From: Pontibacter lucknowensis | GTDB taxonomy: Bacteria; Bacteroidota; Bacteroidia; Cytophagales; Hymenobacteraceae | DNA: 64,000 nt | Direction: 5' to 3' | Assembly (NCBI RefSeq): GCF_900156415.1 | Contig: NZ_FTNM01000005.1 | Coordinates: 186,001-250,000, forward strand | Part shown: in pieces, positions 20,085 through 35,386 of the stretch | Numbering within the stretch: position 1 is the stretch's first letter | Layout: every line of letters starts with the position of its first letter | The notes under the pieces: model-generated | What the model was told of the DNA's origin: nothing | Databases searched by the model: none | The model's input: only the letters and a program-made list of their open reading frames with translations | Position numbers and translations under genes: made by a program

Positions 20085-20216
20085 GAGTACAAAAGAACTT
20101 TAGATAAAGGACAAAAGACTGTCCCACTCAATGTTTTCTTAGTTAAGAAAACACTTACGATGTTTCAATTTCGCACTTACCTGAGGTATGACCGTTCACA
20201 CATTACAGGTATAAGC

Positions 20217-21743
20217 TTAATAAGTTGTCTGTTTTACTTTAGGGCCACGTTCGGCTTCCTCCAGGGCGTCCATCATCATGCCGCCACCTGGTTTGCTTGT
20301 TACCAGCAACAGGATGAATGTGATGGCAGCATTCACCACAATCAGTTCAAAACCCATGGCATAACCAGTCCACTCCACAGAGTTGCTATCCAGAATATAA
20401 GTCAGCACAGGTGAAATCACGCAGACGTACGGCACCAGTTTGTCAGCCACGGCACGTTTGTTAGCCATGCCGAAAGCAAACAAGCCCAGCAACGGACCAT
20501 AGGTATAGCCGGCCGCTTTGAAAATCGCGTTCACCACTGAGTCATCGTTGATGATCTTGAACACGAGGATAACCAGCAGCATGACTACTGAGAAACCAAT
20601 GTGCACCATGTGGCGGGTGCGGATCAGTTTGATGTCGTCGTGGTTGGCTTTTTTGGTGAAGTTCAGAAAGTCCACGCAGAAAGACGTGGTAAGTGCTGTC
20701 AGCGCTGAGTCAGTGGTGGCAAACGTAGCTGCCGTAAGGCCGAGCATGAAGATGATGGCCGGGATCATGGCCATGTGGTTCAGGGCGATTTCTGGGAACA
20801 GGTGGTCAGGCGTAGCAAGCGCCGTTACGTCGATGCCATTGGCTTCTGCATAGATGTACAGCAAAGCACCTACACTCAGGAAGAAGATGTTGATCGATAC
20901 GAAAACACCCGTAAACGTCAGCATATTCTTCTGCGCTTCGCCGATGTTTTTGCAGCTCAGGTTCTTCTGCATCAGGTCCTGATCCAGGCCTGTCATGGCA
21001 ATGGTCACAAAAATACCGCCGATAAAGTGCTTCAGGAAGTGGCTCTTCGTACCCAGGAAATCCTCCCAGAAGAACATCTTGGAGTAAGAGCTGTTTTTCA
21101 CCGCCTCAAAGGTCTGCACCACGTTCAGGTCGAGGCTGCTGGCGATAAAGATGATCGAGAAAATAACCGACGACACGATGAAGAGCGTCTGCAGGGTATC
21201 GGTGATTACGATCGTTTTAAGACCACCCTTGTGGGTATAGAGCCAGATGAGAATCAAGCAAATAGCCACAGTAGCCACAAAAGGGACGTTCCAGGCATCG
21301 AAGATAAAACGCTGCAGCACAATAGCCACCAGGTATAGACGGAAAGCTGAGCCAATGGTACGCGACACCAGGAAGATCATGGCACCCGATTTATAACTCC
21401 AGTAGCCGAAGCGCTTCTCCAGGTAGGTATAAATGGAGATCAGGTTCATGCGGTAGTAGAGCGGCAGAAGCACAAAAGCGATCAGCACAAAGCCGACCGT
21501 GTTGCCAAGCACAAACTGGAAATAGCCGAAACTACTATTGACCACCGCCCCCGGCACCGAGATGAAAGTCACACCCGACAGAGCGGTACCGATCATACCA
21601 AATGCCACGAAGTACCACTTCGAGTTGCGGTTGGCGATAAAGAAACTGGAGTTGTCTGATGATCCTTTCGAAGTAAAGTAGGATATACCTATCAGCACCG
21701 CAAAATAGCCGATCAGAAAAGATAAAAGAACGATTGGAGACAT
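20217..21743 (-). CDS. Sodium:solute symporter family transporter, candidate MurNAc (or related) importer
   Basis: 508 aa with about 13 hydrophobic segments and SSS-family features (GMIGTALSGVTFISVPG, SRTIGSAFRLYLVA, ATFATTDSALTALTTSF). It is followed by the D-lactate dehydrogenase and preceded by murQ on the same strand (gaps of 132 and 121 bp). Members of this family carry sugars, sialic acid or carboxylates with sodium. The linkage to murQ makes MurNAc, its anhydro form or lactate the best candidates. Substrate is inferred only. Confidence 0.85.
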   Translation of the reverse strand: MSPIVLLSFLIGYFAVLIGISYFTSKGSSDNSSFFIANRNSKWYFVAFGMIGTALSGVTFISVPGAVVNSSFGYFQFVLGNTVGFVLIAFVLLPLYYRMNLISIYTYLEKRFGYWSYKSGAMIFLVSRTIGSAFRLYLVAIVLQRFIFDAWNVPFVATVAICLILIWLYTHKGGLKTIVITDTLQTLFIVSSVIFSIIFIASSLDLNVVQTFEAVKNSSYSKMFFWEDFLGTKSHFLKHFIGGIFVTIAMTGLDQDLMQKNLSCKNIGEAQKNMLTFTGVFVSINIFFLSVGALLYIYAEANGIDVTALATPDHLFPEIALNHMAMIPAIIFMLGLTAATFATTDSALTALTTSFCVDFLNFTKKANHDDIKLIRTRHMVHIGFSVVMLLVILVFKIINDDSVVNAIFKAAGYTYGPLLGLFAFGMANKRAVADKLVPYVCVISPVLTYILDSNSVEWTGYAMGFELIVVNAAITFILLLVTSKPGGGMMMDALEEAERGPKVKQTTY

Positions 21744-21864
21744 AATAAGTTAATTAACCACCAGAGGATTAGAAAGAAAAGCAGCTATCACTTTCCTTTC
21801 TTAACCACATAGGATGGTAAGTTACACAGATTTGCCGAATTGGCGGCAATATTGGCCAGCGTTA

Positions 21865-22677
21865 CTACTTCGAAACCAGCACGCTGGCTACGGCCTTGCG
21901 CACACTGCCATGTTTCTCCAGCAATGCAGCCGCTGTTGCTTCGTCAGCACCCGTCTCCGACATGACCATGCGCACGCCACGGTGGTAAAGCTTGTGGTTC
22001 GTCAGCTGCATGTCCACCATCTTGTTGCCGCGCACACGACCCAACTGGATCATCACGGTGGTGCTGAGCATGTTGAGCACCAGTTTCTGAGCCGTACCGG
22101 CTTTCATGCGGGTGCTGCCTGTCACAAACTCCGGGCCTACGACCACCTCTACCGGGTACTGCGCCTCGGCTGCTACCGGACTGCCGGTGTTACACACGAT
22201 ACAGCCGGTTGCCAGACCATACTCATTGGCCATTCGCAAACCGCCGATCACGTATGGTGTCGTGCCCGATGCGGCTATACCTACGATCACATCATTTTCA
22301 TCGAGAGCGTATTCTTTCAGGTCTTCCCAAGCTTGCTCCATGTCGTCTTCGGCAAACTCCACCGCTTTGCGGATAGCCGTGTCACCACCGGCGATCAGGC
22401 CTACTACCATGTCAAAGGGCACACCAAAGGTCGGTGGGCACTCAGAAGCATCCACTACGCCCAGACGGCCGCTGGTGCCGGCACCGATGTAGAACAGTCT
22501 GCCGCCTTTTTTCATGCGGTCCGCTACTACTTCAGCCAGTTTTTCTATTTGAGGAATTGCCTTTTCAACGGCAAGGGGTACGCTTTTGTCTTCACGGTTG
22601 ATGTTCTCCAGCACTTCCCTCACCGACATCTTTTCCAGGTTGTTATAGTTCGAGTCTTTCTCGGTTGTAATCTCCAT
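21865..22677 (-). CDS. murQ: N-acetylmuramic acid 6-phosphate etherase
   Basis: 270 aa SIS-domain enzyme. It cleaves the lactyl ether of MurNAc-6-P to give GlcNAc-6-P and D-lactate in the cytoplasm. Family signatures are clear: YIGAGTSGRLGVVDASECPP, AGGDTAIRKAVEFAEDD with the catalytic Glu region, GIAASGTTPYV, and EFVTGSTRMKAGTAQK. Slightly shorter than E. coli MurQ (298 aa). It sits in the middle of the cell-wall salvage locus between the metallophosphoesterase and the symporter. Confidence 0.96.
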   Translation of the reverse strand: MEITTEKDSNYNNLEKMSVREVLENINREDKSVPLAVEKAIPQIEKLAEVVADRMKKGGRLFYIGAGTSGRLGVVDASECPPTFGVPFDMVVGLIAGGDTAIRKAVEFAEDDMEQAWEDLKEYALDENDVIVGIAASGTTPYVIGGLRMANEYGLATGCIVCNTGSPVAAEAQYPVEVVVGPEFVTGSTRMKAGTAQKLVLNMLSTTVMIQLGRVRGNKMVDMQLTNHKLYHRGVRMVMSETGADEATAAALLEKHGSVRKAVASVLVSK

Positions 22678-22730
22678 GTTGTGTTTTAAATAATTCCTTC
22701 TAAATCAATCGCTATACCTGTTGCTATACC

Positions 22731-24593
22731 TTATTTGGCAGGCACATACTCCAGGCAGGCGATCTTCCCATCCATTGTGCTCACGACTACCCTGTTTTTG
22801 CCGAGCGGCATCACCGGGTTCATGAGACTGTTTGAACTCTTGTATTTCCAAAGTACTTCCCCACTCTGCCGGTCCAATGCGCTGACCAGACCTGAGTGCG
22901 AAGGCACCAGTACTATATTGTTGTGTTCGATTATAGCTGAAGGGGCCAGCTCGTATGGCAGCTGCAACGGCGATTTCCAGTGTAGCTGCAGGGCATTTGC
23001 AGAGCTTGAAACGCCGTATACCTGCCCGTCCATGGTCTTCACGTAGATCAGTTTGCCGTCATTCGAAATCCCCATCGACTCACGCACGCGGCCATCTTTC
23101 ATTTGCTCACGCCACACTACTTCACCTGTGTTAGCGTCCAGTGAGGTCATAAAGCGATCAGGGGCCACGATAAAAATGCGGCCATTGGCGGCTACCGGGT
23201 AGCAGGCAGCTGGTGAAAACATCCGGTTACTGGAGCCGTTGCTCCATTTCCAGGCCAGCTGACCTGTATTGGCGTCAAGGGCATAAAACTCATTGCCCCA
23301 GCTACCAAAGTATACTTTGCCCTGGAAAAGCAGCGGTTTGGTCACCACAAAGTTGTTCACCTGGTCAAAATCCCACAGCAGCTTGCCTTTCTTTAGATCA
23401 AGTGCACGAAAATGCCCATCCGAAGCACCTATGTAGACGACACCTTTCTCGATAAGCGGCGATCCCAGCACAGGTCTGTTGGCTTTAAATTTCCAGGCTA
23501 ACTTGCCTGTAGCGGCAGAGAGGCAGTAAATATGGTCATCCGAAGAACCTACCACCACATAGCCATTCGCCACAGCCGGAGTAGAGTAGATTTTGCCATT
23601 AGTGCGGTAAGTCCACCTGCGCTTTCCGGATTTACTATCCAGTGCGAATACCTCGCCCGTGGTGTTTGTGGCAATGATCAGATCTTTATAAACAGCCGTA
23701 CCCGCTCCTACATCGCTATCATCCTGGTATTCCCATACCAGTTTTACATTTGGGTATAACTTGTTTACGGCAAAAGACGGACGGTGGTGCTTAGTCGGGT
23801 CGTTGGCGAAATCATGCTTTACCAACGGCACCTCTATCCATTTTGGCAAGGATGCTATACCTGGCTTCCGGATTTCAAAACTGGCTTTTCCATCGGCGAA
23901 GGTCACGATATTATACCCTCCCACTTCTTCTTTTGCACGCAGATTAGAGCGACCCATCACGGCAGGTATACCGTCGTAGCGGTATTCGCGGTTGTTATGG
24001 CCATGGCCGTGCAGGATCAGCTGAGTGTTGTAAGAGCGCAGCTTGTCCGTTACGTCGTACCAGTTGTTCAGCGAGGAGTCCTGTGGGTAGTGGTTGAGGA
24101 AAATGACCGGCATTTCCGGATCGGGCATGTGAGTCAGTACCGAGTCCAGCCACACGATATTCTCGCGCGGAATCTGCCCCGGCCCCATTCGCATGTTTGG
24201 CCCTGAACCAGTGCCTGCAAAGAGGTAACCTTTGTGGGTAAATGCAAAGGTCTCTGCCCCGAAAACAACCCGAAAGCTGTTGCTGCCGCTCTCTGACCAG
24301 TTGGTGTCGTGATTGCCAGGCACAATGTACCAGGGCTTTTGGAGAGTATCGAATAGCTGTTTAGCCAGTTTCAGTTCTTCATCAGAACCAAACTCGGTGA
24401 TATCGCCGGTGATGACTACAAACTCAAGATTGGGGTTAGCATTAATGTCGGCGATGGTGCGCTCAAGGTCTTCCTGTGCAGTGGGATTGCCGATGTGGGT
24501 ATCGGATACAAAAGCAAATTGGAAAGACTGACTATAGCCAAGATTGGCGATTAGAAACAGTGCTAACAAAGCGGCATACTTCCGTAAATTCAT
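22731..24593 (-). CDS. Exported calcineurin-like metallophosphoesterase with C-terminal PQQ-type beta-propeller
   Basis: 620 aa from the ATG at 24591-24593. This start is preferred over a frame 54 codons longer because a signal peptide (YAALLALFLIANLGYSQ) follows. The phosphoesterase metal motifs are in order: SDTHIG, GDITEFG, VPGNHDTNW, LNHYPQD and LHGHGHN (about residues 25-210). After a linker, repeats of PQQ/WD-like type begin near residue 280 (GTAVYKDLIIATNTTGEVFALD, GKRRWTYR, GKLAWKFK, GQLAWKW, GEVVWREQ, GEVLWKYK), forming a propeller. Substrate unknown. Upstream of murQ by 53 bp, so possibly part of the salvage operon. Confidence 0.88.
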   Translation of the reverse strand: MNLRKYAALLALFLIANLGYSQSFQFAFVSDTHIGNPTAQEDLERTIADINANPNLEFVVITGDITEFGSDEELKLAKQLFDTLQKPWYIVPGNHDTNWSESGSNSFRVVFGAETFAFTHKGYLFAGTGSGPNMRMGPGQIPRENIVWLDSVLTHMPDPEMPVIFLNHYPQDSSLNNWYDVTDKLRSYNTQLILHGHGHNNREYRYDGIPAVMGRSNLRAKEEVGGYNIVTFADGKASFEIRKPGIASLPKWIEVPLVKHDFANDPTKHHRPSFAVNKLYPNVKLVWEYQDDSDVGAGTAVYKDLIIATNTTGEVFALDSKSGKRRWTYRTNGKIYSTPAVANGYVVVGSSDDHIYCLSAATGKLAWKFKANRPVLGSPLIEKGVVYIGASDGHFRALDLKKGKLLWDFDQVNNFVVTKPLLFQGKVYFGSWGNEFYALDANTGQLAWKWSNGSSNRMFSPAACYPVAANGRIFIVAPDRFMTSLDANTGEVVWREQMKDGRVRESMGISNDGKLIYVKTMDGQVYGVSSSANALQLHWKSPLQLPYELAPSAIIEHNNIVLVPSHSGLVSALDRQSGEVLWKYKSSNSLMNPVMPLGKNRVVVSTMDGKIACLEYVPAK

Positions 24594-24887
24594 CTGTTTA
24601 TTTCCTCTTGAAGCAAAAAGACCGATGGCAGCACTTAGAGTAGTTGTACCCATTCTGCTCATGCTGCCTTTTGTTTGGTAAACTAGCGCAGAAACCGCAC
24701 AAAAGCGCACGAGCAAAACGAATACTGTCCCTTTATTTTGTATAAAACTAAGCACTTGTTCGTAAAGTTCAAACTATTTCGCAAGATTTTTTCTAAAACC
24801 GGCAAAAACACGCAAAAAACCTCTTTTTAATAATCTATATATTCCGGCACTTACCTCAGGCTGTGGTTCAGCTATTGATGCCGGCAC
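24594..24887. other. Intergenic region upstream of the metallophosphoesterase gene
   Basis: 294 bp without a gene. It is AT-rich around 24770-24840. A 10-bp direct repeat CCGGCACTTA occurs near 24844 and 24881. No hairpin terminator is visible after the amidase gene. Confidence 0.5.
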
Positions 24888-25505
24888 TTAATGGCCTTTC
24901 ACTAATTGCCTGAATCGTGGCAGCTCCCCATACAAACCAGTACCCGGACAGCTGGTTTCAGCAAAATCCTTGTGTGCCCCCAGGCTGTCGGCAGGTATGC
25001 CGAAGCGCTTCGTCAGGGCCGGCACCAGTTTTTCGAGCGTCTTTAGCTGCGCCTCTGTGATAGCCTCTTTTTCGAAGTTGCCCTCTACGACCACCAGCAG
25101 ATGGCCGGCCGGATCGTAACTGGTGTTGGAATCACCTGCATAGTTGAGATCCCGCGCCTCTCCAACAGCTCCATGCACATCCACATAAAGGTGATAGGGC
25201 ACATCTGCCCAGGCCGGTTTCATGCGACCATCCGCCAGGGGGCTGTCTTCCTGTGAGAACTTCTGCAGATTGCGCAGCTTATCAGTCAGGCTACGGTCAA
25301 ACAACTGCGGCACACCGGTATGATGGATGGTCAGCCTTGTCAGCTTATGCGGTCGCATCGGCAGCACTGGCGCGTTAGCTCCCCACTCCTCCCTCGACAG
25401 GTAGCTTATACCTTCCGGTATCAGCGGCGCATCGGAAGTGGCAGCAGGTTGTTGGCAACCAACAAAGCCGGCAAGGGCGCACACCAGTATCAGAACTTTT
25501 TTCAT
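24888..25505 (-). CDS. N-acetylmuramoyl-L-alanine amidase, peptidoglycan-recognition (PGRP/Amidase_2) type
   Basis: 205 aa lipoprotein (LAGFVGC signal, lipid Cys near 17). PGRP-like pattern: SREEWGANAP, zinc His pair in LTIHHTGVP, YHLYVDVHGAVGEARD, and the distal ligands in LGAHKDFAETSCPG (His and Cys). It hydrolyses the MurNAc-L-Ala bond. Located directly downstream (35 bp) of the deacetylase frame, so likely in the same transcript as GH9 and the GHL10-type enzyme. Confidence 0.9.
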   Translation of the reverse strand: MKKVLILVCALAGFVGCQQPAATSDAPLIPEGISYLSREEWGANAPVLPMRPHKLTRLTIHHTGVPQLFDRSLTDKLRNLQKFSQEDSPLADGRMKPAWADVPYHLYVDVHGAVGEARDLNYAGDSNTSYDPAGHLLVVVEGNFEKEAITEAQLKTLEKLVPALTKRFGIPADSLGAHKDFAETSCPGTGLYGELPRFRQLVKGH

Positions 25506-25539
25506 TTGTCTCTAATTTTTAAAGCGCAGGTATAGCGCG

Positions 25540-26253
25540 CTACTTTTCTTGTTCCAACAACTCATCCAGCCGCACAAACCGATAGTTTTTCTCTTTCAGC
25601 TTCGTGAGCATTTCGTCGAGCCGGTGGTAAAACTTATCCGTCCGCCTCGGGTCTGTGCCAATGTGCAGGAGCAGCATAAAGCCGTTCAGTCCGTTTCTGT
25701 CCTTCGCCTCATAGCCCATGATCGACTGCAGCACCGTTTCCGAGTCCATATACCGGTTGCCCATTTCGGGGTAGGTATAGTCGGCGGCAGAACGGGTGCC
25801 GGGCGAAAAATTAACCAATTGCAGCCCTTCCTCCGATGTCCAGTTGCTGATGCTGCGGTTATACCATTCGTATGGCGGCAGAAAATAAGGCGCGTCTTTC
25901 TTCTTCACACCAAAGGCTTCCATGCGCTGGTAATTTTTCCGCAGGTCTTCCCTGAACTGCTCCCGCGTTACCAACAGACTATCGCGTTTTGTCCAGTCGC
26001 AGTAAAGCAGGTGCTCGTCGGAGTGCGCTCCCAGGTAATGGCCCTCTTTCTTCAGCCCCCTGATCAAGGCCCTGAAAGCGGGATTCCGGTAAAAGCGCCC
26101 CGTGAGAAAAAAGGAGGCTTTGACCTGGTGCTTTTTCAGCACATGGCTGATCACTTCTCCACCGTCCGCAAACTCATCCCCGGTGAAGATCAGCGCGATC
26201 TGCCGGACTGTCGTGTCACCCCGGATGATCGCTCCGTGGCTGTCTACTATTAC
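25540..26253 (-). CDS. Polysaccharide deacetylase (NodB-like) domain lacking its own start; likely -1 frameshift extension of the GH9 gene
   Basis: 237 codons. A NodB fold is clear: the Bacteroidota variant catalytic motif FTGDE (codons 26187-26173), KASFFLTGRFYRNP, the metal site GAHSDEH, YFLPPYEWYN and LLLHIGTD near the end. The reading frame is open from 26280 (after a TAG at 26281-26283) but contains no ATG, GTG or TTG before GTG at 26154. That GTG lies after the catalytic Asp, so an enzyme begun there would be dead, and there is no signal peptide. The frame joins GH9 exactly by a -1 shift at A AAA AAG (26253-26259). The alternative is an indel in the six-A run or a sequencing error. Domain call firm; mode of expression inferred. 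Confidence 0.85.
   Translation of the reverse strand, partial: VIVDSHGAIIRGDTTVRQIALIFTGDEFADGGEVISHVLKKHQVKASFFLTGRFYRNPAFRALIRGLKKEGHYLGAHSDEHLLYCDWTKRDSLLVTREQFREDLRKNYQRMEAFGVKKKDAPYFLPPYEWYNRSISNWTSEEGLQLVNFSPGTRSAADYTYPEMGNRYMDSETVLQSIMGYEAKDRNGLNGFMLLLHIGTDPRRTDKFYHRLDEMLTKLKEKNYRFVRLDELLEQEK
26195..26232 (-). promoter_or_regulatory. Possible stem-loop downstream of the frameshift site
   Basis: GCGATC (26232-26227) pairs with GATCGC (26200-26195). After a 2x2 internal loop, CCGG (26224-26221) pairs with CCGG (26206-26203). It starts about 20 nt after the slippery heptamer, farther than in dnaX, so a stimulatory role is uncertain. Confidence 0.35.
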
Positions 26254-28109
26254 TTTTTTGGCTGCCTCCCCTCCTGCGAGCTATGTTCTTTGGCTGCCAG
26301 CAAGTAGATCAGAGAAGCTGTACCGTCCATGGTTGGCTCGTTGGTGCTGTAGTCGCCGAAGTCGTCGTGATATACTGCCAGGTCAGACTGAAACTCGGCA
26401 TAGGCATCCTCACTGTATAGCTTCAGATGTTGCAGGTTGTTGAAGATGCTGCCATACACCGGACCATCCACCAGCCCTCCGTCAATCGGGTACTTGTTCA
26501 GTCGGGTAAAGGCGGAGTGTGGGTCTGTTGGCGTATCGCCGTGTGCTGGCAGGCCATACACCATGCTTGTCCCCCAAGGGTTCACACCGAACAGCCAGTC
26601 TATGTTCGCCTGCTCCAGCTCAGCGTACGTCTGGTCGCCGGATAACTGGCGGTACAGGAAGCTTTGGATGGCAAAAGAGGTAGTCAGGTTATTAGAGCAC
26701 CAGATGAATGGCACACCACGGTAAAAGGCATTCTTCTTTGCCTTGGCGTATACCTTTTCTATACCTTCCTTGTAGAATCCGATCAACTCTGCCTTCGTCT
26801 TGTCGTCAGATTTCTTGGCCAGCTCAAAGTGACCGAAGTTGTGGAACGGGTACCACTGGTAATGACGGGCTGTATCGGCCCCCATCCAAGGGGTTACCTT
26901 TTCCTGAAGCCCATAGGTGTAGGCTTGCTTGAAGAATTCCTGCTTGCCGGTCAGCTGGTAAAGCGCCGCTGCACCCAGCTGCATGTCGTCTACCCAGTTG
27001 TCTTCCTCATAGAAATAAGGCGCCCTGTTGGGAGCGGTCTGTGCAACGCCTGGTTTGGCCAGGCCCAGTTTGTAGGCAGACTGTGCCTTCTGACCAAAGA
27101 GATTAGAAAGTCTCTGATCTTTGGTGCTGTAAATCTGAGCGGCCAGTCCGAAGGCACTTGTGAACTTCCCGGCAATAGAGGCAACGCCGGTCGCCCGGTT
27201 CTGGTACTTGCCCAGGCCTTGCGGCTCCCCGGAGGCAAAGTATACCGGACGCGGACCTCCATTGCCCATGCCATAGTCAACGGGGTCATTCGTTGGAAGC
27301 CGCATGCCTTGATGGTCGCGGTCGTCAGCTAGTTGGTTGAAGAGCCAGTCTTCACGCGGGTGCATCTTCACGAGCCAGTCCAGTCCCCACTTTGCCTCGT
27401 CAAGTACGTCGGCTACACCGTTCGTTCCCTCGAGTCCGTTGGCCTGGTGCTTGTCAGTGAACACGTCCGGAAAGTCACGGTAGGCAGCCAACAGGTGGTA
27501 AGTGGCGTTGGCCGAAGTAGTGGCATACTGCAGGTAATCTGAGGCATCGTGCCAGCCACCCGACACGTCGATGATGGTGCTGTCGGGCATCGGGCCATAC
27601 ATGGTATAGCCGTCCTGGGTATGACAGGAGTCTTGCAGGTAAGGGTTGAAGCCGCTGCGTTGCTGGCGCATGTAGCGCAGCGCAAAGTCTGCGGTACCTT
27701 TGTACACGTCGGCGCCAATCCGGAACTCGGGCGACTTAGCACTACCGGCCTGCAGGTAGTAAGTACCCGGCTTGTTATACTCGGTGAAGTTCAGGCGGTA
27801 AGATTCCTCAAACGGTCCGTAAGCACCAAAAGCATTACCAGCTCTGCCTTTGAATACTACTTTGCCAGTGCTAGCGTCTACCAGCTGAAAGCGGCGAAGC
27901 TTTTCTTTCGATTTACTTCCCCACACCGCTACTTTTATACCTTGAGGGGTATAACCTAACTGGTTAATGCGAATCCAGGCAGGACCTTTGGCGGCTATAC
28001 CTGCCTCCTCTATAGCAGGGGTAGCTTTGTTCGAGAAAGCAATGGCATTGGCTGCCACGATCATCGTCGTCAGCACCAGCGCCAATATGGTCTTTTTCCT
28101 GTTCTTCAT
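26250..28109 (-). CDS. Glycoside hydrolase family 9 with N-terminal CelD-type Ig domain
   Basis: 619 aa with signal peptide (ILALVLTTMIVAANAIA). An Ig-like CelD_N domain (about 42-130, IRINQLGYTPQG) precedes the (alpha/alpha)6 GH9 domain. Catalytic residues are visible: base/nucleophile-activating Asp in GGWHDASDY (D188, D191) and proton donor E591 in TNEPTMDGTASL. GH9 contains cellulases but also exo-beta-D-glucosaminidases acting on chitosan oligomers. In a cell-wall locus and next to a deacetylase, an amino-sugar substrate is plausible. It starts 4 bp after the GHL10 gene ends. The C-terminal tail may be extended by frameshift into the deacetylase to about 856 aa. Confidence 0.92.
   Translation of the reverse strand: MKNRKKTILALVLTTMIVAANAIAFSNKATPAIEEAGIAAKGPAWIRINQLGYTPQGIKVAVWGSKSKEKLRRFQLVDASTGKVVFKGRAGNAFGAYGPFEESYRLNFTEYNKPGTYYLQAGSAKSPEFRIGADVYKGTADFALRYMRQQRSGFNPYLQDSCHTQDGYTMYGPMPDSTIIDVSGGWHDASDYLQYATTSANATYHLLAAYRDFPDVFTDKHQANGLEGTNGVADVLDEAKWGLDWLVKMHPREDWLFNQLADDRDHQGMRLPTNDPVDYGMGNGGPRPVYFASGEPQGLGKYQNRATGVASIAGKFTSAFGLAAQIYSTKDQRLSNLFGQKAQSAYKLGLAKPGVAQTAPNRAPYFYEEDNWVDDMQLGAAALYQLTGKQEFFKQAYTYGLQEKVTPWMGADTARHYQWYPFHNFGHFELAKKSDDKTKAELIGFYKEGIEKVYAKAKKNAFYRGVPFIWCSNNLTTSFAIQSFLYRQLSGDQTYAELEQANIDWLFGVNPWGTSMVYGLPAHGDTPTDPHSAFTRLNKYPIDGGLVDGPVYGSIFNNLQHLKLYSEDAYAEFQSDLAVYHDDFGDYSTNEPTMDGTASLIYLLAAKEHSSQEGRQPKK
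26253..26275 (-). promoter_or_regulatory. Candidate -1 programmed frameshift site (slippery heptamer plus SD-like stimulator)
   Basis: In the GH9 frame the last codons are CCA AAA AAG TAA. The heptamer A AAA AAG (26259-26253) is the same as in E. coli dnaX. AGGAGG (26275-26270) lies exactly 10 nt upstream of it, the spacing of the dnaX stimulator, inside AGGAGGGGAGG. Slipping back one base continues into the deacetylase frame. In Bacteroidota the anti-SD is thought to be sequestered, so the stimulator may be weaker than it looks. Confidence 0.6.
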
Positions 28110-28113
28110 AAGG

Positions 28114-29655
28114 CTAGCGTAGCTTTTTTAGGTAAACATTAGAAGGCTTACTCTCATTTTTCAATCTGTCGATGGATGTTACCACATATTTGTAGGTCTT
28201 CCCGCGTTCGGCTGTCTCGTCGTGGAAACCCAGTTCGTAATCGTTGAATTGGATGTGGCGAATGTTGCGGGCATGTTCCAGGTTGATCGGCTCGTTTTCG
28301 TCGAAGCGGTATACTACAAAACCATACACATCCTCTTCCTGATCCGGGTAATCCCATTTGATAATCGCCTTGCGAAGTCGCGGTAAGAAGAGCAGGAACT
28401 TGTCTTCTCGCAGACTAACAGGCTTGGCAGGTTTGGCCATACCTAACCATGGCATAATTGGCTGCAGGGCCGGATAGCGGTACAGGTCGTGTTGCAGGGA
28501 ATCGCGAAAACCAGCCAGGTTGTTGGTGAGCGAACGTGAACTGAAATACACACTGCCCTGCACCCGTGGGTTCTCACGCAGGTAGCGCACCTGGTTTGGC
28601 AACTGCTGCCGGTCGCGCCAGCCTTCACGGTCTTCCATGGCACGGTAGGCTCCCTGGCCTATATACACATGCTTACCATTGGAATTGGCAGCCCACCAGT
28701 CCAGCAGTTTTTCGTAAGGTGCCGGTGTATAGCCGAAGGGGAAGTACAGCTGCGGGTTGATGTAGTCGATCCAGCCTTCCTGCACCCACTTGCGGGCATC
28801 GGCATATAAGGCACTATACCCTGACAGGCCATTGCTCTCTGAACCCTGCGGGTCCTGTGACTTGTTGCGCCAGATACCAAATGGGCTGATACCGAACTTC
28901 ACATGCTTTTTCTCTTTCTTGATTGCCTCTGACAGGTCTTTGATCAGCTGGTCCACATTGTTGCGGCGCCAGTCTTCAATGTTCTTAATGCCTTGCTCAT
29001 GCAACATATAAGTGATGGAGTCTGGCAGGGCTGTTTTGCCCGGATAAGGGTAAAAGTAATCGTCGAAGTGGATGCCGTCGATGTCGTAGTTGCGCACCAC
29101 GTCCATGATCACATCCACGAGGTAGTGGCGCACCTCAGGTATGCCGGGGTTAAAGTATTTTTTGTCGCCGTAGGTAAAGAACCAGTCCGGCTGAATGCGG
29201 GAGATGTGCTCGCTGCTCACCAGCGAATCGACCAGGCTGGTTGAGGCACGGTAAGGGTTAATCCACGCATGCAGTTCCATGCCACGCTTGTGGGCTTCTT
29301 CGATGGCAAACTCCAGCGGATCGTAGAACGGCTCCGGCAGCGTGCCTTGCTTGCCGGTCAGGAACATACTCCACTGCTCACGCCCTTTGGCATAGAAAGC
29401 GTCGGCTGAGGGACGAACCTGCAGCATCACAGCATTTATACCTGTTTTCTGATGGGTGTCGAAGATGTCAACCAGTTCCTGCATCTGCTGCTGGGAATCT
29501 ACACCCTGCTTTGGTTTGGAAGGCCAGTCGATGTTCTGTACTGTGGCAATCCATACGCCTCTGAACTCACGTTTAGGAGGATCTTTTGAAACCTGTGCAA
29601 ACAGGCTGACTGAACTGAGTAGCAAGGCGGCTAAAAGTGTAAAGTTTCTAATCAT
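28114..29655 (-). CDS. Glycosyl-hydrolase-like 10 (DUF187) family protein, YngK/DigH-like
   Basis: 513 aa from the ATG at 29653-29655. A longer frame adds 14 residues before the signal peptide LLAALLLSSVSLFAQ, so the later start is chosen. The TIM-barrel domain starts with FRGVWIATVQNIDWPSKP and includes MLQVRPSADAFY, HAWINPYR, DGIHFDDYFYPYPG and WIDYINPQLYFPFGY. A fibronectin-like C-terminal domain begins near 405. E. coli DigH of this family cuts denuded murein glycan strands, which fits the setting. It is first of the GH9/deacetylase/amidase transcription unit. Confidence 0.9.
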   Translation of the reverse strand: MIRNFTLLAALLLSSVSLFAQVSKDPPKREFRGVWIATVQNIDWPSKPKQGVDSQQQMQELVDIFDTHQKTGINAVMLQVRPSADAFYAKGREQWSMFLTGKQGTLPEPFYDPLEFAIEEAHKRGMELHAWINPYRASTSLVDSLVSSEHISRIQPDWFFTYGDKKYFNPGIPEVRHYLVDVIMDVVRNYDIDGIHFDDYFYPYPGKTALPDSITYMLHEQGIKNIEDWRRNNVDQLIKDLSEAIKKEKKHVKFGISPFGIWRNKSQDPQGSESNGLSGYSALYADARKWVQEGWIDYINPQLYFPFGYTPAPYEKLLDWWAANSNGKHVYIGQGAYRAMEDREGWRDRQQLPNQVRYLRENPRVQGSVYFSSRSLTNNLAGFRDSLQHDLYRYPALQPIMPWLGMAKPAKPVSLREDKFLLFLPRLRKAIIKWDYPDQEEDVYGFVVYRFDENEPINLEHARNIRHIQFNDYELGFHDETAERGKTYKYVVTSIDRLKNESKPSNVYLKKLR

Positions 29656-29678
29656 TGTTCCGGTTGGGTATAGGGTGG

Positions 29679-29723
29679 CTAAAAAAAAGCCCTCCAATAG
29701 GTTTAGTAAAGGAGGGGCTCTTT
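29679..29723 (-). terminator. Terminator after the DUF4397 gene
   Basis: AGCCCTCC and GGAGGGGCT form a stem; on the minus strand it is followed by eight T. A second hairpin without T-run (AACCCGGG/CCCGGGTT, 29828-29854) lies between it and the gene's stop. Confidence 0.75.
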
Positions 29724-29861
29724 CATGTTGATAAAACTATTCGTAAGCTAATCTATTACTATTTGTACTAGGATGCAAGCCAGGTCTGAAACCGACTTAC
29801 CTTGTGCAGAAAGTAAAAGCGGGAAATAACCCGGGACCAGCGCTGCCCCGGGTTTACCACC

Positions 29862-30665
29862 TTATCTCTCTCTCCAGTAATCTATCTGGGCAGCCTTTGG
29901 CTTTTCAGCGTAAGTGCCACGAATCTGCGTAGTGTACACACGACCCAATGACGCTATTGCGAATGACTGCTGGATATAAGAAGTTGAAGTAGCAGGATCG
30001 TACTCCGTACCGGAGGCAAAAACCTTGTAGGTATAGGTTCCTGGCTTCAGCTCTACGTATGGGCCGTGCTCTTTAAAGTCAAGACCTTTGCCCAGTTCAT
30101 ACACCTCAACTGGCTCAGCTGGCTTTGTGTCAGTTGCTGGTACAGCAGAACGCACTGCGTAAGCATCCACAGCAAACGGCATGTTCGCCATTGTGTTCAT
30201 AAAGCGCCACCAGATTTTGGTGTAATCTGCTGGAGGCAGGTTATCCTCTACCATGAACACTTCGTAGCTTTCCGGAGTACCCGCCAGGTAAGCTGAGTAG
30301 TGTTTGTTGTTAGCCAGGCTTACAGAAGTACTTGCCAGCACATCGGCCGTGCCGGCTCCTGCCACTGTGTCGATCGCACTCATATTAAAGCTACCAGCCG
30401 GCACCAATGCGTAGGCATTGCTAGGGTATACTGAACCATAAAGGTTGCCCAGCACAATGTCAGTCGTGGTAGGCGCTACACCAGTCACTTTCTTGCTGTC
30501 CAGGTAAAAATTGGCGCGGGGTGCTCCTTCCACCTGGAAGAAGAACTTCACGTAAGCGCCATCTTGCACTGGCTCTGTTACTTCAGGGATGGCGTTCTTT
30601 TCGCAGGCTCCTAGCAGGAAGCCTGCTGCCAAAAACAGGAATGCTCTTTTAAATATCTTCATCAT
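29862..30665 (-). CDS. DUF4397-domain lipoprotein downstream of SusD
   Basis: 267 aa with lipoprotein signal FLLGACEKN (Cys near 21). Residues about 40-130 match the DUF4397 pattern (AYVKFFFQVEGAPRANFYLD, GNLYGSVYPSNAYALVPAG). It follows SusD by 12 bp, the place where surface glycan-binding proteins are usually encoded, so a cell-surface binding role is a fair inference. A terminator follows. Confidence 0.82.
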   Translation of the reverse strand: MMKIFKRAFLFLAAGFLLGACEKNAIPEVTEPVQDGAYVKFFFQVEGAPRANFYLDSKKVTGVAPTTTDIVLGNLYGSVYPSNAYALVPAGSFNMSAIDTVAGAGTADVLASTSVSLANNKHYSAYLAGTPESYEVFMVEDNLPPADYTKIWWRFMNTMANMPFAVDAYAVRSAVPATDTKPAEPVEVYELGKGLDFKEHGPYVELKPGTYTYKVFASGTEYDPATSTSYIQQSFAIASLGRVYTTQIRGTYAEKPKAAQIDYWRER

Positions 30666-30677
30666 CTCTTTTTCGGA

Positions 30678-32273
30678 TTATTCGTGTTTGCTGAACCAAG
30701 TTTCATAAGTGTGGTAGTTCTCATCGAAGCCGCCCATAGCACGTAGCGCCTCCTGATTCCACATATACTCTGAGTTGTATCTCGGACGTGCTCTGTAAGC
30801 CGGCACTCCCTGGTTAGACACGTGCAGTTGCTCAGGCAGTACGAAGCCTGTATACACTTCACCATCCTGGTTGTAGTGGTATCTTCTCATGTCAGACCAA
30901 GTCTCGATGAAGCCCCATCCCCATGTAGCGATGTACTTCTGCAGCATGATCTTAGAAAGTGTCAGGCCGGCAGGAGAAGTTGGCATCATTTCCTCGCTGG
31001 CCAGGTAAGCGGCCTTGCGCTGATCAAACATAGCTGGATCTGGTGCATAAGTACGGGCAAAGTCAATATGTGCTGTCACCCCTTTTCTGTAAGCATCCAG
31101 GGCTACATCCATCTTACCTGCGATCCAGGCTGCTTCTGCTTTGATGAACTGCAGCTGCGAGTAAGTCATCAGTGGGAAAAGAGCCGAGTTACCAAAAATG
31201 TAGATCTGGCGAGGCTGTACAGTTGACACACCTACAGAACCCCACAGGTTGTTTGGAACCTCCGCGGCAGGTATACCTGTGATACCTTTTCCTGAACGAA
31301 GACCTCTGTACTGACCGTCCGGCGACGGTGCCAGCATAGCCGTCAAACGTGGGTCTTTCAGGTGCTGTCCTTCAAACACAGGATCAGTTCCTGCCAGGTC
31401 CTCGTCACGCAGCGATGGGTTAGTACCATCCAGCAAACCAACGATGTAATCTGTCTGACGATTAGAAGCGATGTTGTTACGGATCGGCCCGAAGAAGTTT
31501 GTGTTAGCACTTACTTCTCCCTGAAAGCGGATCATAGCGTTGTCGGCATTGCTGGCAAGCGACTGATCCACGTACTCGATCACTTTGTTCGGGTCATAAG
31601 AAGACTTGTTTGTCAGGCGGTGTGCGTTGATCGCCAGCATACCGTAGGCAAACTTCTTCCAGCGCTCACGATTACCTGCGTAAATCAGGTCACCTTTGCT
31701 CAGACCAGAGCTAGCAGCATCCAGTCCGTCAGTTCTCTCCAGGCTTTTGATACCTTCTTCTAACAGACGCTTGATCTCAGGGTAAACAGCCTGCTGCTCA
31801 TCGTAGTTGAACACACGTCTGTCTGGATCAAAGGCCTCCGTCATGATCACCGGACCATGATAGTCGGTCAGCGCCTGCCAGCCGTAAGCACGCATGATGT
31901 GGCCAACGCCTACAAAGTCGTACTTTTTGCTGCGCTCGCCGCTCTCGATCATATCCGACAGGTTGTAGCCCATGCTCCAGTACACGGCTCTCCAAAGCTG
32001 CGCATAGGAGTCAGAAAGTGGATTGGCGTGTAAGTCAAGTGCGTTGTCTGCAGCTGTAGAAGCCCAGTTCTGCACGTACTGACCTGCAAAACGACCATCC
32101 CACTGCATCGCTACTGCCATTTCAGACTGTATCTGCGGCAGGAACAGTTCCGGCTGCAACAGAGAGTCCGGACCGTTCGGGTTTGTGTTTACGTCTAGGT
32201 AATCTTTACAGCCAGATGCCGAAAACACGCTGGCCGCTATAAGAGAAGCTACTAATATCTTTCTCATTTTCAT
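30678..32273 (-). CDS. SusD/RagB-family outer-membrane lipoprotein
   Basis: 531 aa with lipoprotein signal ending SASGC (Cys22) and the family N-terminus KDYLDVNTNPNGPD. Internal landmarks include VGHIMRAYGWQALTDYHGPV and a C-terminal FIETWSDMRRYHYNQDGEVYTG. SusD caps the SusC channel and binds the ligand. It lies 5 bp after SusC. The neighbourhood (NamZ, GHL10, GH9, amidase, MurQ) points to a cell-wall glycan or muropeptide ligand rather than a plant glycan. Confidence 0.93.
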   Translation of the reverse strand: MKMRKILVASLIAASVFSASGCKDYLDVNTNPNGPDSLLQPELFLPQIQSEMAVAMQWDGRFAGQYVQNWASTAADNALDLHANPLSDSYAQLWRAVYWSMGYNLSDMIESGERSKKYDFVGVGHIMRAYGWQALTDYHGPVIMTEAFDPDRRVFNYDEQQAVYPEIKRLLEEGIKSLERTDGLDAASSGLSKGDLIYAGNRERWKKFAYGMLAINAHRLTNKSSYDPNKVIEYVDQSLASNADNAMIRFQGEVSANTNFFGPIRNNIASNRQTDYIVGLLDGTNPSLRDEDLAGTDPVFEGQHLKDPRLTAMLAPSPDGQYRGLRSGKGITGIPAAEVPNNLWGSVGVSTVQPRQIYIFGNSALFPLMTYSQLQFIKAEAAWIAGKMDVALDAYRKGVTAHIDFARTYAPDPAMFDQRKAAYLASEEMMPTSPAGLTLSKIMLQKYIATWGWGFIETWSDMRRYHYNQDGEVYTGFVLPEQLHVSNQGVPAYRARPRYNSEYMWNQEALRAMGGFDENYHTYETWFSKHE

Positions 32274-32278
32274 TTCAA

Positions 32279-35200
32279 TTAAAATCCTGCTCTAATTCCA
32301 AAGTTAATTCCTCTTGGCAACGGGAAGTTACCATAGTCGAGGCCACCACCACCGGCGCCACCTACTGCGGCAGAGTTACCGTTTGCTACCGGATCCAGAC
32401 CAGAGTAGTTCGTGATCAGGAACAGGTCTGTACCTGTTACAAACACGTTCAGGTCTTCGATGAACTTCACACGCTGCATGATGCTCGTCGGCATGCGGTA
32501 GTTCAATGTCACGTCACGCAGACGTACCCAGTTCACGTCTTTCTCAATGAAGCTCTGGTGCGGGTAGATAGAAGCCCAGTAAGAAGAGTTTCTGTAAAGG
32601 TCGATCGGAATGTTGTTCTGTGTTGGGTTGGCCGTGTTCTCCAGACCGTCTTTCAGCACACCTGTTACAATGCGTGGCTCTTCTCTGTTCAACGTACGCT
32701 TGCTCAGACCATTTACCGTCAGGTAGTGCTCTGTTGCATTGTACACGTCACCGCCTTTGCGGATGTCAAGCAGGAAGTTAAGCGACAGATTCTTGTAAGT
32801 GAAAGTGTTTGTCAGGCCGATGTTGAAGTCAGGGTTACGGTCACCTACTATAGCCCACTCGCTGGTGTTCAGGATAGGAAGACCGGTAGATGGGTTGATC
32901 AACACATCACCGTTGTCGTTGCGCTGGTAGTCATAACCCGTGAAGGTTGTAAGCGGACCATCCACACGTGAACCTACACGCACGTTGCCATACAGCCAGG
33001 TGTCAGAGTTGTAGAACTCCTGCACGTCGCCAGGCAGCTTCGTCAGTTTGCTGTTGTTCTTCGTGTAGTTCAACAACACGTCCCATCTGAAATTGCTGTT
33101 CTCTACAGGCGTGCCGTTCAGTTGAAGTTCTATACCTGAGTTCTCCATCTCACCGGCATTGAAGGTCATCAATACGAAACCAGTAGCATAGCTCAGACGC
33201 AGGTTCTGCACAATCTGGTCAACAGACTTCTTCTTGAAGTATGTCGCGTCGATGCCGAAGCGGTCGTTGAAGAACTTCAACTCTGTACCAAACTCGTAAG
33301 AGGTTGTCATTTCCGGACGCAGGTTCAGGCTTGGGCCTGTGAAACCGTAGCGGAAGCCACCACCTGTCGTTTGAGCCGATTCGTAGAACGGACGGATGCT
33401 GTAAGGGCGGGCATCTTTACCTACCTGGGCAATTGAGCCTCTCAACTTACCATAAGACAGTACATTTTTGAACCCCTGGAATGGCTCCAACTCGGTGAAC
33501 ACAAAGCTCAGACCGGCAGATGGATAGAAGAAAGAGTTGTTCTGCACTGGCAGTGTAGAGCTCCAGTCATTACGACCTGTCAAAGTCAGGAAGAGGATGT
33601 CGTTGTAGCTGGCGTTGAAGCTACCCCATGCGCCTACCAGACGACGCTGCGTCAGGTTATTGTAGGCGCGCTGTGTTGTAAGTGCCGTGTTGTTGATCGA
33701 GTACAGATCAGGCGCCATGAACTGCTCACCTGTAGCGGCTGCACTGAACGTGTTCCAGTCATATACTGTGCTACCCACTTTCAGGTCAGTGCGCAGTTTG
33801 TCGTTGAACAAAGTAGGCGCTGTAAACTGTGCGTAGTACTGGAAAGTAAGGTTACGGTTCGTGATAAGCGCCTGGTCAAAGATACCACCGTAAGAGCGGC
33901 CTGCATTAGACTCAGGATGACGCACGATTGTATTTTTCTCAGTATAGTAGTCAACACCTGCCTGGCCTACCAGTTTCATCCAGTCTGTCACGTCAGTTGT
34001 TAAGCTGGCGTTCAGTCTGTAACGGTCTGTCAGGGAGTTGAAGATGTTCTTGTTTACGTTAAAGAACGGGTTCTCAATAGCAGTTGAGTAAGCACCGAAG
34101 TCTCTTCTGTTTCCGCTCGGCGTCAGGTAGTTGCTTGCGTCGTCGTTAGATGGCCAGCGCAACAACTGCAGCAAAGGACCACCAGCACCTCTGAATGCCT
34201 GGTCGTTGTCAGAACGGGTATAGTCGAATGTCACGTCTGTTGACATGAACTTATTCAGCTTTGCTGTGATAGCAGAAGAAAGCGTGATACGCTCCAGACC
34301 TGTGTTCGGGATGAAGCCCTGAGCATCGGTGAAGGAACCCGAAATGCGGTACTGTGCAGATTCGTTACCACCAGTAAAGGCCAGGTTGTGCTTCTGAGTG
34401 AAAGCATCCTGGAAGAAGTTCTTTACATTGTCATAGAACTGTACTTCAGATGGATAAGGCGCACCGAAGTAAGAAAGGCTTTCATCACCTTCCGTTGTGT
34501 AGCCATTAATACCTCTGTCGTACTTCTGCTGAATTTCAGGGTAGCGCACGATGCGGTCGATACGGAAGCTGTTGCTGTAGTTGATACGGGCTTTGCCAGC
34601 CTGACCACGCTTGGTGGTAATTACGATCGCACCAGAAGCAGCCTCAATACCATAAAGAGCGGCCGCTTCAGGGCCTTTCAGTACGGTGATGCTTTCAATG
34701 TCCTCCGGGTTGATGTCGGCAGCACGGTTGGTAAAGTCAACACCTCTGTTTTCGAAGGACTTAGCGCCAGCACCGATAGAAGAAGCAAACACCCCTGTAG
34801 AAGTTGTGTTGTTGCTGATCGGAAGACCGTCTACCACGAACAGTGGCTGGTTGTTACCGCTCAGGGAGCTGATACCACGGATTACGATAGAAGAAGAAGA
34901 ACCTGGCAGACCAGAAGAAGCATTTACTTCCACACCAGCCACACGACCGGCAAGGCCGTTCACGAAGTTCTCGCGCTGTGTCTGGGCAATGGTAGCACCT
35001 TTAACCTCTGTTACGGCGTAACCAAGCGCTTTCTTTTCCTGCTTGATACCAAGGGCTGTTACTACCACTTCGCTCAGGCTTTCGGCATTTGCTTGCAGTG
35101 CAACATTGATTACTGTGTTAGTACCCACAGGTCTTTCAGCAGGTTTCATCCCGATAAAGCTGAACACCAGCACATCAGAAGGCGCTACTGAAATCGAGAA

Positions 35201-35386
35201 TTTACCATCCACGTCGGTATTCGTACCACGCGGCTGGCCTTTAACGGCTACCGTCACACCAGGTAGCGGGGAATTGTCGGAGGCGGCAGTTACCGTGCCG
35301 GTCACAGTCGTGCTCTGGGCATTGGCTGTAAAGTGAAACAGGAGGAAACATATCCCCCATAGGTAACATTGTAATTTTTTCATCAT
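32279..35386 (-). CDS. SusC/RagA-family TonB-dependent outer-membrane transporter
   Basis: 1035 aa. Signal peptide, then a CarboxypepD_reg-like domain (STTVTGTVTAASDNSPLPGVTV, about 25-105), a plug with SLSEVVVTALGIKQEKKALGY and FVVDGLPISN, the SusC signature ADINPEDIESITVLKGPEAAALYG, and a beta-barrel ending in GINFGIRAGF. No N-terminal STN signalling domain is seen, so it is not of the anti-sigma-coupled type. It starts the susC-susD-DUF4397 operon behind a 595-bp AT-rich region. Confidence 0.95.
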   Translation of the reverse strand: MMKKLQCYLWGICFLLFHFTANAQSTTVTGTVTAASDNSPLPGVTVAVKGQPRGTNTDVDGKFSISVAPSDVLVFSFIGMKPAERPVGTNTVINVALQANAESLSEVVVTALGIKQEKKALGYAVTEVKGATIAQTQRENFVNGLAGRVAGVEVNASSGLPGSSSSIVIRGISSLSGNNQPLFVVDGLPISNNTTSTGVFASSIGAGAKSFENRGVDFTNRAADINPEDIESITVLKGPEAAALYGIEAASGAIVITTKRGQAGKARINYSNSFRIDRIVRYPEIQQKYDRGINGYTTEGDESLSYFGAPYPSEVQFYDNVKNFFQDAFTQKHNLAFTGGNESAQYRISGSFTDAQGFIPNTGLERITLSSAITAKLNKFMSTDVTFDYTRSDNDQAFRGAGGPLLQLLRWPSNDDASNYLTPSGNRRDFGAYSTAIENPFFNVNKNIFNSLTDRYRLNASLTTDVTDWMKLVGQAGVDYYTEKNTIVRHPESNAGRSYGGIFDQALITNRNLTFQYYAQFTAPTLFNDKLRTDLKVGSTVYDWNTFSAAATGEQFMAPDLYSINNTALTTQRAYNNLTQRRLVGAWGSFNASYNDILFLTLTGRNDWSSTLPVQNNSFFYPSAGLSFVFTELEPFQGFKNVLSYGKLRGSIAQVGKDARPYSIRPFYESAQTTGGGFRYGFTGPSLNLRPEMTTSYEFGTELKFFNDRFGIDATYFKKKSVDQIVQNLRLSYATGFVLMTFNAGEMENSGIELQLNGTPVENSNFRWDVLLNYTKNNSKLTKLPGDVQEFYNSDTWLYGNVRVGSRVDGPLTTFTGYDYQRNDNGDVLINPSTGLPILNTSEWAIVGDRNPDFNIGLTNTFTYKNLSLNFLLDIRKGGDVYNATEHYLTVNGLSKRTLNREEPRIVTGVLKDGLENTANPTQNNIPIDLYRNSSYWASIYPHQSFIEKDVNWVRLRDVTLNYRMPTSIMQRVKFIEDLNVFVTGTDLFLITNYSGLDPVANGNSAAVGGAGGGGLDYGNFPLPRGINFGIRAGF

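Follow-up and report, generated by a model that had tools for sequence, protein, structure and literature searches.

The GH9 gene in the window, the 64,000-nucleotide stretch of Pontibacter lucknowensis DNA analysed here, ends in a junction that is very probably a conserved programmed −1 frameshift site, which would yield both GH9 alone and a GH9-CE4 fusion. The sequence confirms what the initial annotation had described: an in-phase slippery heptamer at the end of GH9, an AGGAGG exactly 10 nt upstream, and an overlapping −1 frame, closed on its upstream side by a stop codon. This frame encodes a NodB-type CE4 deacetylase, whose FTGDE motif lies ahead of the first possible start codon in that frame (Table 1). 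No ATG, GTG or TTG was found in the −1 frame of the window between the upstream TAG and FTGDE.

Table 1. Features of the GH9-CE4 junction in the window
Feature	Position	Strand	Details and source
GH9 gene, 0 frame	26250..28109	-	619 aa, ends CCA AAA AAG TAA; ORF list and Pfam
Slippery heptamer A AAA AAG, in phase with GH9	26253..26259	-	sequence
GH9 stop TAA adjoining the heptamer	26250..26252	-	sequence
SD-like AGGAGG, 10 nt 5' of the heptamer	26270..26275	-	sequence
Second GGAGG, 5 nt 5' of the heptamer	26265..26269	-	sequence
TAG closing the −1 frame on the upstream side	26281..26283	-	sequence
CE4 (NodB-type) deacetylase, −1 frame	25540..26253	-	237 residues from GTA 26253, plus stop; PF01522
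FTGDE motif of the deacetylase, 5' of any start codon	26173..26187	-	sequence
GTG, first possible start in the deacetylase frame, 3' of FTGDE	26152..26154	-	ORF list
Hairpin of the initial annotation; folds here, conservation not found	26195..26232	-	folding

We propose that ribosomes on the mRNA of the secreted GH9 would arrive at CCA AAA AAG with GGAGG 10 nt behind them, and that the two lysine tRNAs would shift back by one base and pair anew on A AAA AAG, a slip probably aided by pairing of GGAGG with the anti-SD of the 16S rRNA. After the slip, reading would continue from GTA into the CE4 deacetylase. The products, both presumably exported, would be GH9 alone and GH9-CE4, whose 856 aa (619 from GH9 and 237 from the −1 frame) agree with the length calculated in the initial annotation. 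We infer that the ribosome, not RNA polymerase, slips at A6G and that the fusion is exported, as we do the role of the SD-like element, the product ratio and the substrates.

Conservation in Pontibacter and relatives

A search of 59 genomes, including the own genome, gave 20 with a match. Seventeen matches are strong, comprising the own genome and 16 relatives with 68-100% identity over CE4, and the weak matches L024-L026 were left out. All 17 strong matches keep A AAA AAG followed by TAA or TAG, with CE4 in the −1 frame; such retention of the heptamer and the two-frame layout argues against decay or sequencing error. The SD-like element, too, is kept in relatives. A GTG lies 5' of the motif in three of them (L014, L019 and L020), and no conserved start-like codon was found between heptamer and motif across the first 17 loci. 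The gene is missing from many Pontibacter genomes, which counts against the frameshift reading.

Further analysis of 20 Pontibacter sequences, two of which have a GTG near the end of the tested stretch, covered the 22 codons that run from the heptamer in the direction of the motif and gave a dN/dS of 0.16 in the CE4 frame versus 1.53 and 1.78 in the other two frames. Coding constraint on the −1 frame thus extends beyond the site.

Layouts in a wider sample of loci

The sample was widened by overlapping searches of the family (204 genomes, 28 with a match), the order (390 genomes, 50), the class (395 genomes, 19), the phylum (395 genomes, 41) and the family to which a Pedobacter genome belongs (301 genomes, 108), and by 80 named loci kept among 589 confirmed ones. 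In total, 302 loci were gathered, 228 of which are distinct after duplicate removal. As only part of the matches was taken and later sampling favoured short open frames, enriching two-frame loci, the following shares of the 228 are not prevalences: 101 are in-frame GH9-CE4 fusions, 90 have CE4 in an overlapping −1 frame, 33 have no GH9 within 1 kb upstream, two have a −1 frame with a gap, and two have an overlapping +1 frame. Relatives with one continuous GH9-deacetylase therefore exist, and random indels at the junction, a counter-indication named in the initial annotation, are not the pattern, with overlapping pairs shifted by −1 in 90 cases versus +1 in two. Both +1 pairs (L189 and L191) are distant, with 39-40% identity to the window GH9, and their deacetylases possess their own start and a signal-peptide-like N-terminus. 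Together with L075, an N-masked record, they make up three initial +1 layouts that were dismissed.

An in-phase A AAA AAG or A AAA AAA lies in the overlap of 89 of the 90 −1 loci. The exception, L174, is a distant pair with a true ATGA overlap; a start of its own precedes this deacetylase, and the N-terminus resembles a signal peptide. In 70 of the 89 two-frame loci, the GH9 stop directly follows the heptamer. The linkers of the in-frame fusions served as a control (89 usable of 101, 12 being dropped for want of an anchor or linker); they contain an in-phase heptamer in 7/89, GGAGG in 7/89 and an A9 run in 2/89. In the first sample, which had 51 recoded loci and 79 fusions (68 of them usable), the median linker is 25 residues in both groups alike.

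The deacetylase frame of the window had been described as lacking a signal peptide, and the same holds throughout: a signal-peptide-like start was found in 0/89 two-frame loci versus 32/33 stand-alone CE4 loci, by a generous rule (a hydrophobic N-terminus after some start) that was the same for both groups. An ATG, GTG or TTG is present 5' of the motif in 48 of the 89 two-frame loci, with ATG in seven, which counts against the frameshift reading. Altogether, the kept layout, the coding constraint and the continuous fusions in relatives support the programmed −1 frameshift put forward in the initial annotation, and argue that translation of the −1 frame takes place within a fusion.

Two kinds of slip site

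The A runs of the 89 loci are 6 (62 loci), 7 (two), 8 (one), 9 (13) or 10 (11) nucleotides long. A G follows the A6 run in 62/62 loci, and 57 of these 62 carry GGAGG within 25 nt upstream, 49 at exactly 10 nt and five at 13 nt; a second GGAGG at 5 nt, as in the window, occurs in five of the 62. GGAGG is also found in all three A7-A8 loci and in two of the 24 A9-A10 loci. The association between run length and GGAGG is strong when kinship is ignored (Fisher p = 1e-13); correction for kinship leaves three to four independent pairs, of which none points the same way, and significance would take more of them. The residues encoded under the GGAGG at 10 nt vary among REG, LEE, QEG, REV, MEE and others. 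Since the spacing is fixed over such varied residues, the SD-like element appears to be under selection at the nucleotide level.

The window possesses two features of dnaX-type sites, the in-phase A AAA AAG and an SD-like element about 10 nt upstream; its A6 run falls short of the run of about nine or more identical bases that defines transcriptional slippage. By analogy, A6G sites with GGAGG look like ribosomal shifts of the Escherichia coli dnaX type, and A9-A10 sites without GGAGG perhaps represent polymerase slippage of the Thermus dnaX type. Other Bacteroidota encode the join as an in-frame fusion or carry it at an A9-A10 run, for which polymerase slippage is the likelier mechanism. Within one Sphingobacteriaceae group (g168), 18 A6, 10 A9-A10 and four fused loci occur side by side.

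RNA structure around the site

A downstream stem-loop is a stimulator that not every −1 shift needs. The hairpin that the initial annotation placed after the site does fold in the window (−19.6 kcal/mol), but it is not conserved in the 20 Pontibacter sequences (alifold 0.0, z 0.5). Nor was a conserved stem-loop seen in the 45 nt downstream of the heptamer in 26 further A6 loci. The lack of this element of the dnaX-type class in Pontibacter counts against the assignment. Five Pedobacter loci with the SD-like element at 13 nt have a stem starting 5 nt past the heptamer, with one compensating pair.

In 38 non-Pontibacter A6 loci, the 31 nt 5' of the heptamer contain a small inverted repeat that often has GGAGG in its loop, with some compensating changes. 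Its pairing is in excess in one register (z 5.1 versus permuted arms, kinship ignored); in the 20 Pontibacter sequences, z is only 2.4 and in another register. Per-sequence folding of this mini-hairpin is modest (mean z −0.8, 46 loci). The mini-hairpin with GGAGG in its loop is no more than a lead.

Alternative explanations and switching between layouts

RNA polymerase slippage, by which some transcripts would gain one A and produce the fusion by ordinary translation, also at A6G, is an improbable account of the window. It would fit the A9-A10 runs, 22 of 24 without GGAGG, as bacterial polymerase slips at that length according to an excerpt of PMC5009743, which also describes stimulation of weak sites by a nascent stem-loop; the upstream repeat, present though weak in many non-Pontibacter A6 loci, could play such a part. 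However, the repeat is weak in Pontibacter, the run of the window consists of six A then G as do all other A6 runs, and polymerase slippage has no need of the GGAGG that nearly all A6 loci carry, mostly at one spacing. Synthesis of two separate proteins, in which reinitiation past the GH9 stop, from a weak or non-AUG codon, would yield the deacetylase, is less likely still. The close overlap of the GH9 stop with the deacetylase frame would suit it, and L174 shows what a true overlap of this kind looks like; yet the two-frame loci have neither a conserved start-like codon (first 17 loci) nor a signal-peptide-like start, and reinitiation would leave the A6G plus GGAGG pattern without purpose.

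Decay of a fusion gene or a homopolymer sequencing error, both listed as alternatives in the initial annotation, has a negligible probability. A runs are indel-prone, the tree requires at least 20 changes between fused and split states, and the fused Pedobacter locus L078 has A7 where its two-frame neighbours have A6. As a general account it is nevertheless contradicted by the same site in all 17 strong matches and in 20 distinct sequences of Pontibacter, where purifying selection acts downstream of it, and by the in-phase heptamer in 89/90 shifted loci. The programmed −1 frameshift thus stands as the preferred reading.

On a quick tree of 190 rows, in which some long branches meet and from which the direction of change was not inferred, at least 20 changes separate fused from recoded loci, 14 of them forced by well supported branches, and three states need 22. 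Such frequent interchange suggests that free GH9 is dispensable in some places, which counts against the frameshift reading. In Pedobacter, recoding at A6G is seen in L055 and L058; their neighbour L078 (Pedobacter rhodius) keeps AAGGAGG and is continuous through A7. L078 may have switched recently, or its linker may represent the layout in reverse, with slippage releasing GH9. We tentatively suggest, as a speculation more likely to fail than to hold, that this Bacteroidota family switches repeatedly between three routes to one GH9-CE4 joint: as a plain fusion, through a ribosomal shift driven by the SD at A6G, or through slippage of the polymerase at A9-A10. The ribosomal route would draw on the normally hidden anti-SD, so that the proportion of fused and free GH9 could follow ribosomes with a freed anti-SD, e.g. 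bS21-poor ones.

Anti-SD and lysine tRNAs

The anti-SD is sequestered in Bacteroidia ribosomes (PMC9976891, excerpt), which counts against an SD role; the caution of the initial annotation on this point was apt, yet the 10-nt spacing of GGAGG holds although the residues encoded there vary. A prfB shift containing an SD is common in Bacteroidia, being present in 523/726 genomes (PMC8710568, excerpt), and the GH9-CE4 locus points the same way as prfB on SD use despite a hidden anti-SD. An intact CCTCC 16S end was found by one pattern in 4/48 genomes, two more matching genomes having another sequence, and by a second pattern in 23/39 genomes. The genomes with an intact end include the Pontibacter genome G020 and belong to both the A6G and A9-A10 classes. 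The assembly of the window gave no pattern match for its 16S end, and the patterns cannot reveal an altered end where unmatched. An altered anti-SD was rejected, with intact 16S ends among the matching genomes of both classes.

Pattern matching shows tRNA-Lys UUU but not CUU in six Pontibacter genomes, as in the E. coli frameshift case in an excerpt of PMC5009743. Across 48 genomes, the CUU pattern is absent from the six Pontibacter and five Rufibacter-group genomes, and present in most Sphingobacteriaceae of both classes. ARAGORN identified 10 of 12 CUU-pattern loci as tRNA-Lys CUU and 12 of 12 UUU-pattern loci as tRNA-Lys UUU. The lysine tRNA set, an idea taken from the same excerpt (PMC5009743), fails to sort A6G from A9-A10 sites in these 48 genomes and was rejected as their cause.

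Domains of the two enzymes

The window GH9 consists of Pfam CelD_N and Glyco_hydro_9 domains, the latter complete (PF00759, match 1-444 of 444), following an N-terminus that is signal-peptide-like by eye. Its GGWHDASDY and TNEP, which we take to be the motifs of the catalytic Asp and Glu, align with 3x17, in keeping with GH9 membership. The nearest solved structure is an endoglucanase.

The −1 part matches Polysacc_deac_1 (PF01522) at 50.8 bits (cut-off 23.1). Its AlphaFold2 model (pLDDT 94.7) resembles solved CE4 structures with top TMq values of 0.72-0.75, and the NodB fold with its catalytic motifs places it in CE4. As some of the top matches are pseudoenzymes, CE4 activity is here a prediction. 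PdaA and PdaB are among its kin in the PDB and NCBIfam, all of them below NCBIfam cut-offs. Compared to the usual CE4 motif 1, TFDD, the deacetylase has TGDE, and T24, G25, D26 and E27 are invariant in the 17 sequences from the own genome and 16 relatives; FTGDE is presumably the catalytic motif. The group termed Rufibacter for convenience (g25; L096, from Rufibacter ruber, and L128-L132) has FTGHE instead, in which the His presumably takes the place of the usual base Asp.

Genomic neighbourhood

GH9-CE4 lies in an apparent cluster for peptidoglycan or MurNAc use (window 17253-35386, minus strand), together with SusC, SusD, DUF4397, GHL10, an amidase, a metallophosphatase-PQQ protein, a MurNAc-6-phosphate etherase (TIGR00274, above cut-off), a sodium symporter and an FAD/Fe-S oxidase, which is perhaps, at a guess, a D-lactate dehydrogenase. 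In Tannerella, a MurNAc symporter-kinase-MurQ operon is described (PMC5790795, excerpt). Peptidoglycan is a fair guess for the substrate in Pontibacter. It was rejected for the whole family, since MurQ lies within 5 kb of only 8/80 named loci, all of them Pontibacter.

Comparison with known frameshift systems

Like the junction described here, E. coli dnaX has an in-phase A AAA AAG with an SD-like element upstream (PMC3711429 and PMC5009743, excerpts). Its shift, however, shortens the product, whereas that of GH9-CE4 would add a second catalytic domain, and it differs from Pontibacter, though not from the five Pedobacter loci, in having a conserved downstream stem. Thermus thermophilus dnaX, where the polymerase slips at an A9 site (PMC5009743, excerpt), has its likeness in the A9-A10 sites of 24 related loci, at which slippage is a prediction; unlike that case, the window site is A6G with an SD-like element. 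The −1 genes of magnesium chelatase (GeneTack clusters) are likewise two-frame in some species and continuous in others (PMC3711429, excerpt), but they encode other proteins and their frameshifting was measured, whereas that of GH9-CE4 is predicted from the sequence. In Bacteroidia prfB, an SD-like element also acts on elongating ribosomes with a hidden anti-SD (PMC8710568, excerpt); that shift is +1 at a stop codon and autoregulatory, in contrast to −1 on lysine codons. Another glycoside hydrolase, the archaeal α-L-fucosidase of Sulfolobus, is made via a −1 shift (PMC8037382 and PMC8211752, excerpts), which completes one enzyme rather than adding a second enzyme domain. No GH9-deacetylase frameshift appears among the literature matches listed or in the excerpt of PMC3711429, supplementary tables excluded, and the gene may sit unnamed in a frameshift catalogue.

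If true, GH9-CE4 would represent frameshifting in a gene for secreted carbohydrate enzymes, widely conserved within a phylum described as having SD-blind ribosomes. Comparison of its natural variants could then test whether the anti-SD is used by elongating Bacteroidota ribosomes outside prfB, and this single gene would show how plain fusion, polymerase slippage and ribosomal shift take one another's place. Such deacetylases may appear truncated or inactive in gene-caller output.

A dnaX frameshift site is possibly present in the own genome as well: its dnaX gene (L340, bases 2585-2621; G000:C6) contains A AAA AAA in phase, preceded at 7 nt by AAGGAG and followed two codons later by a −1 stop.
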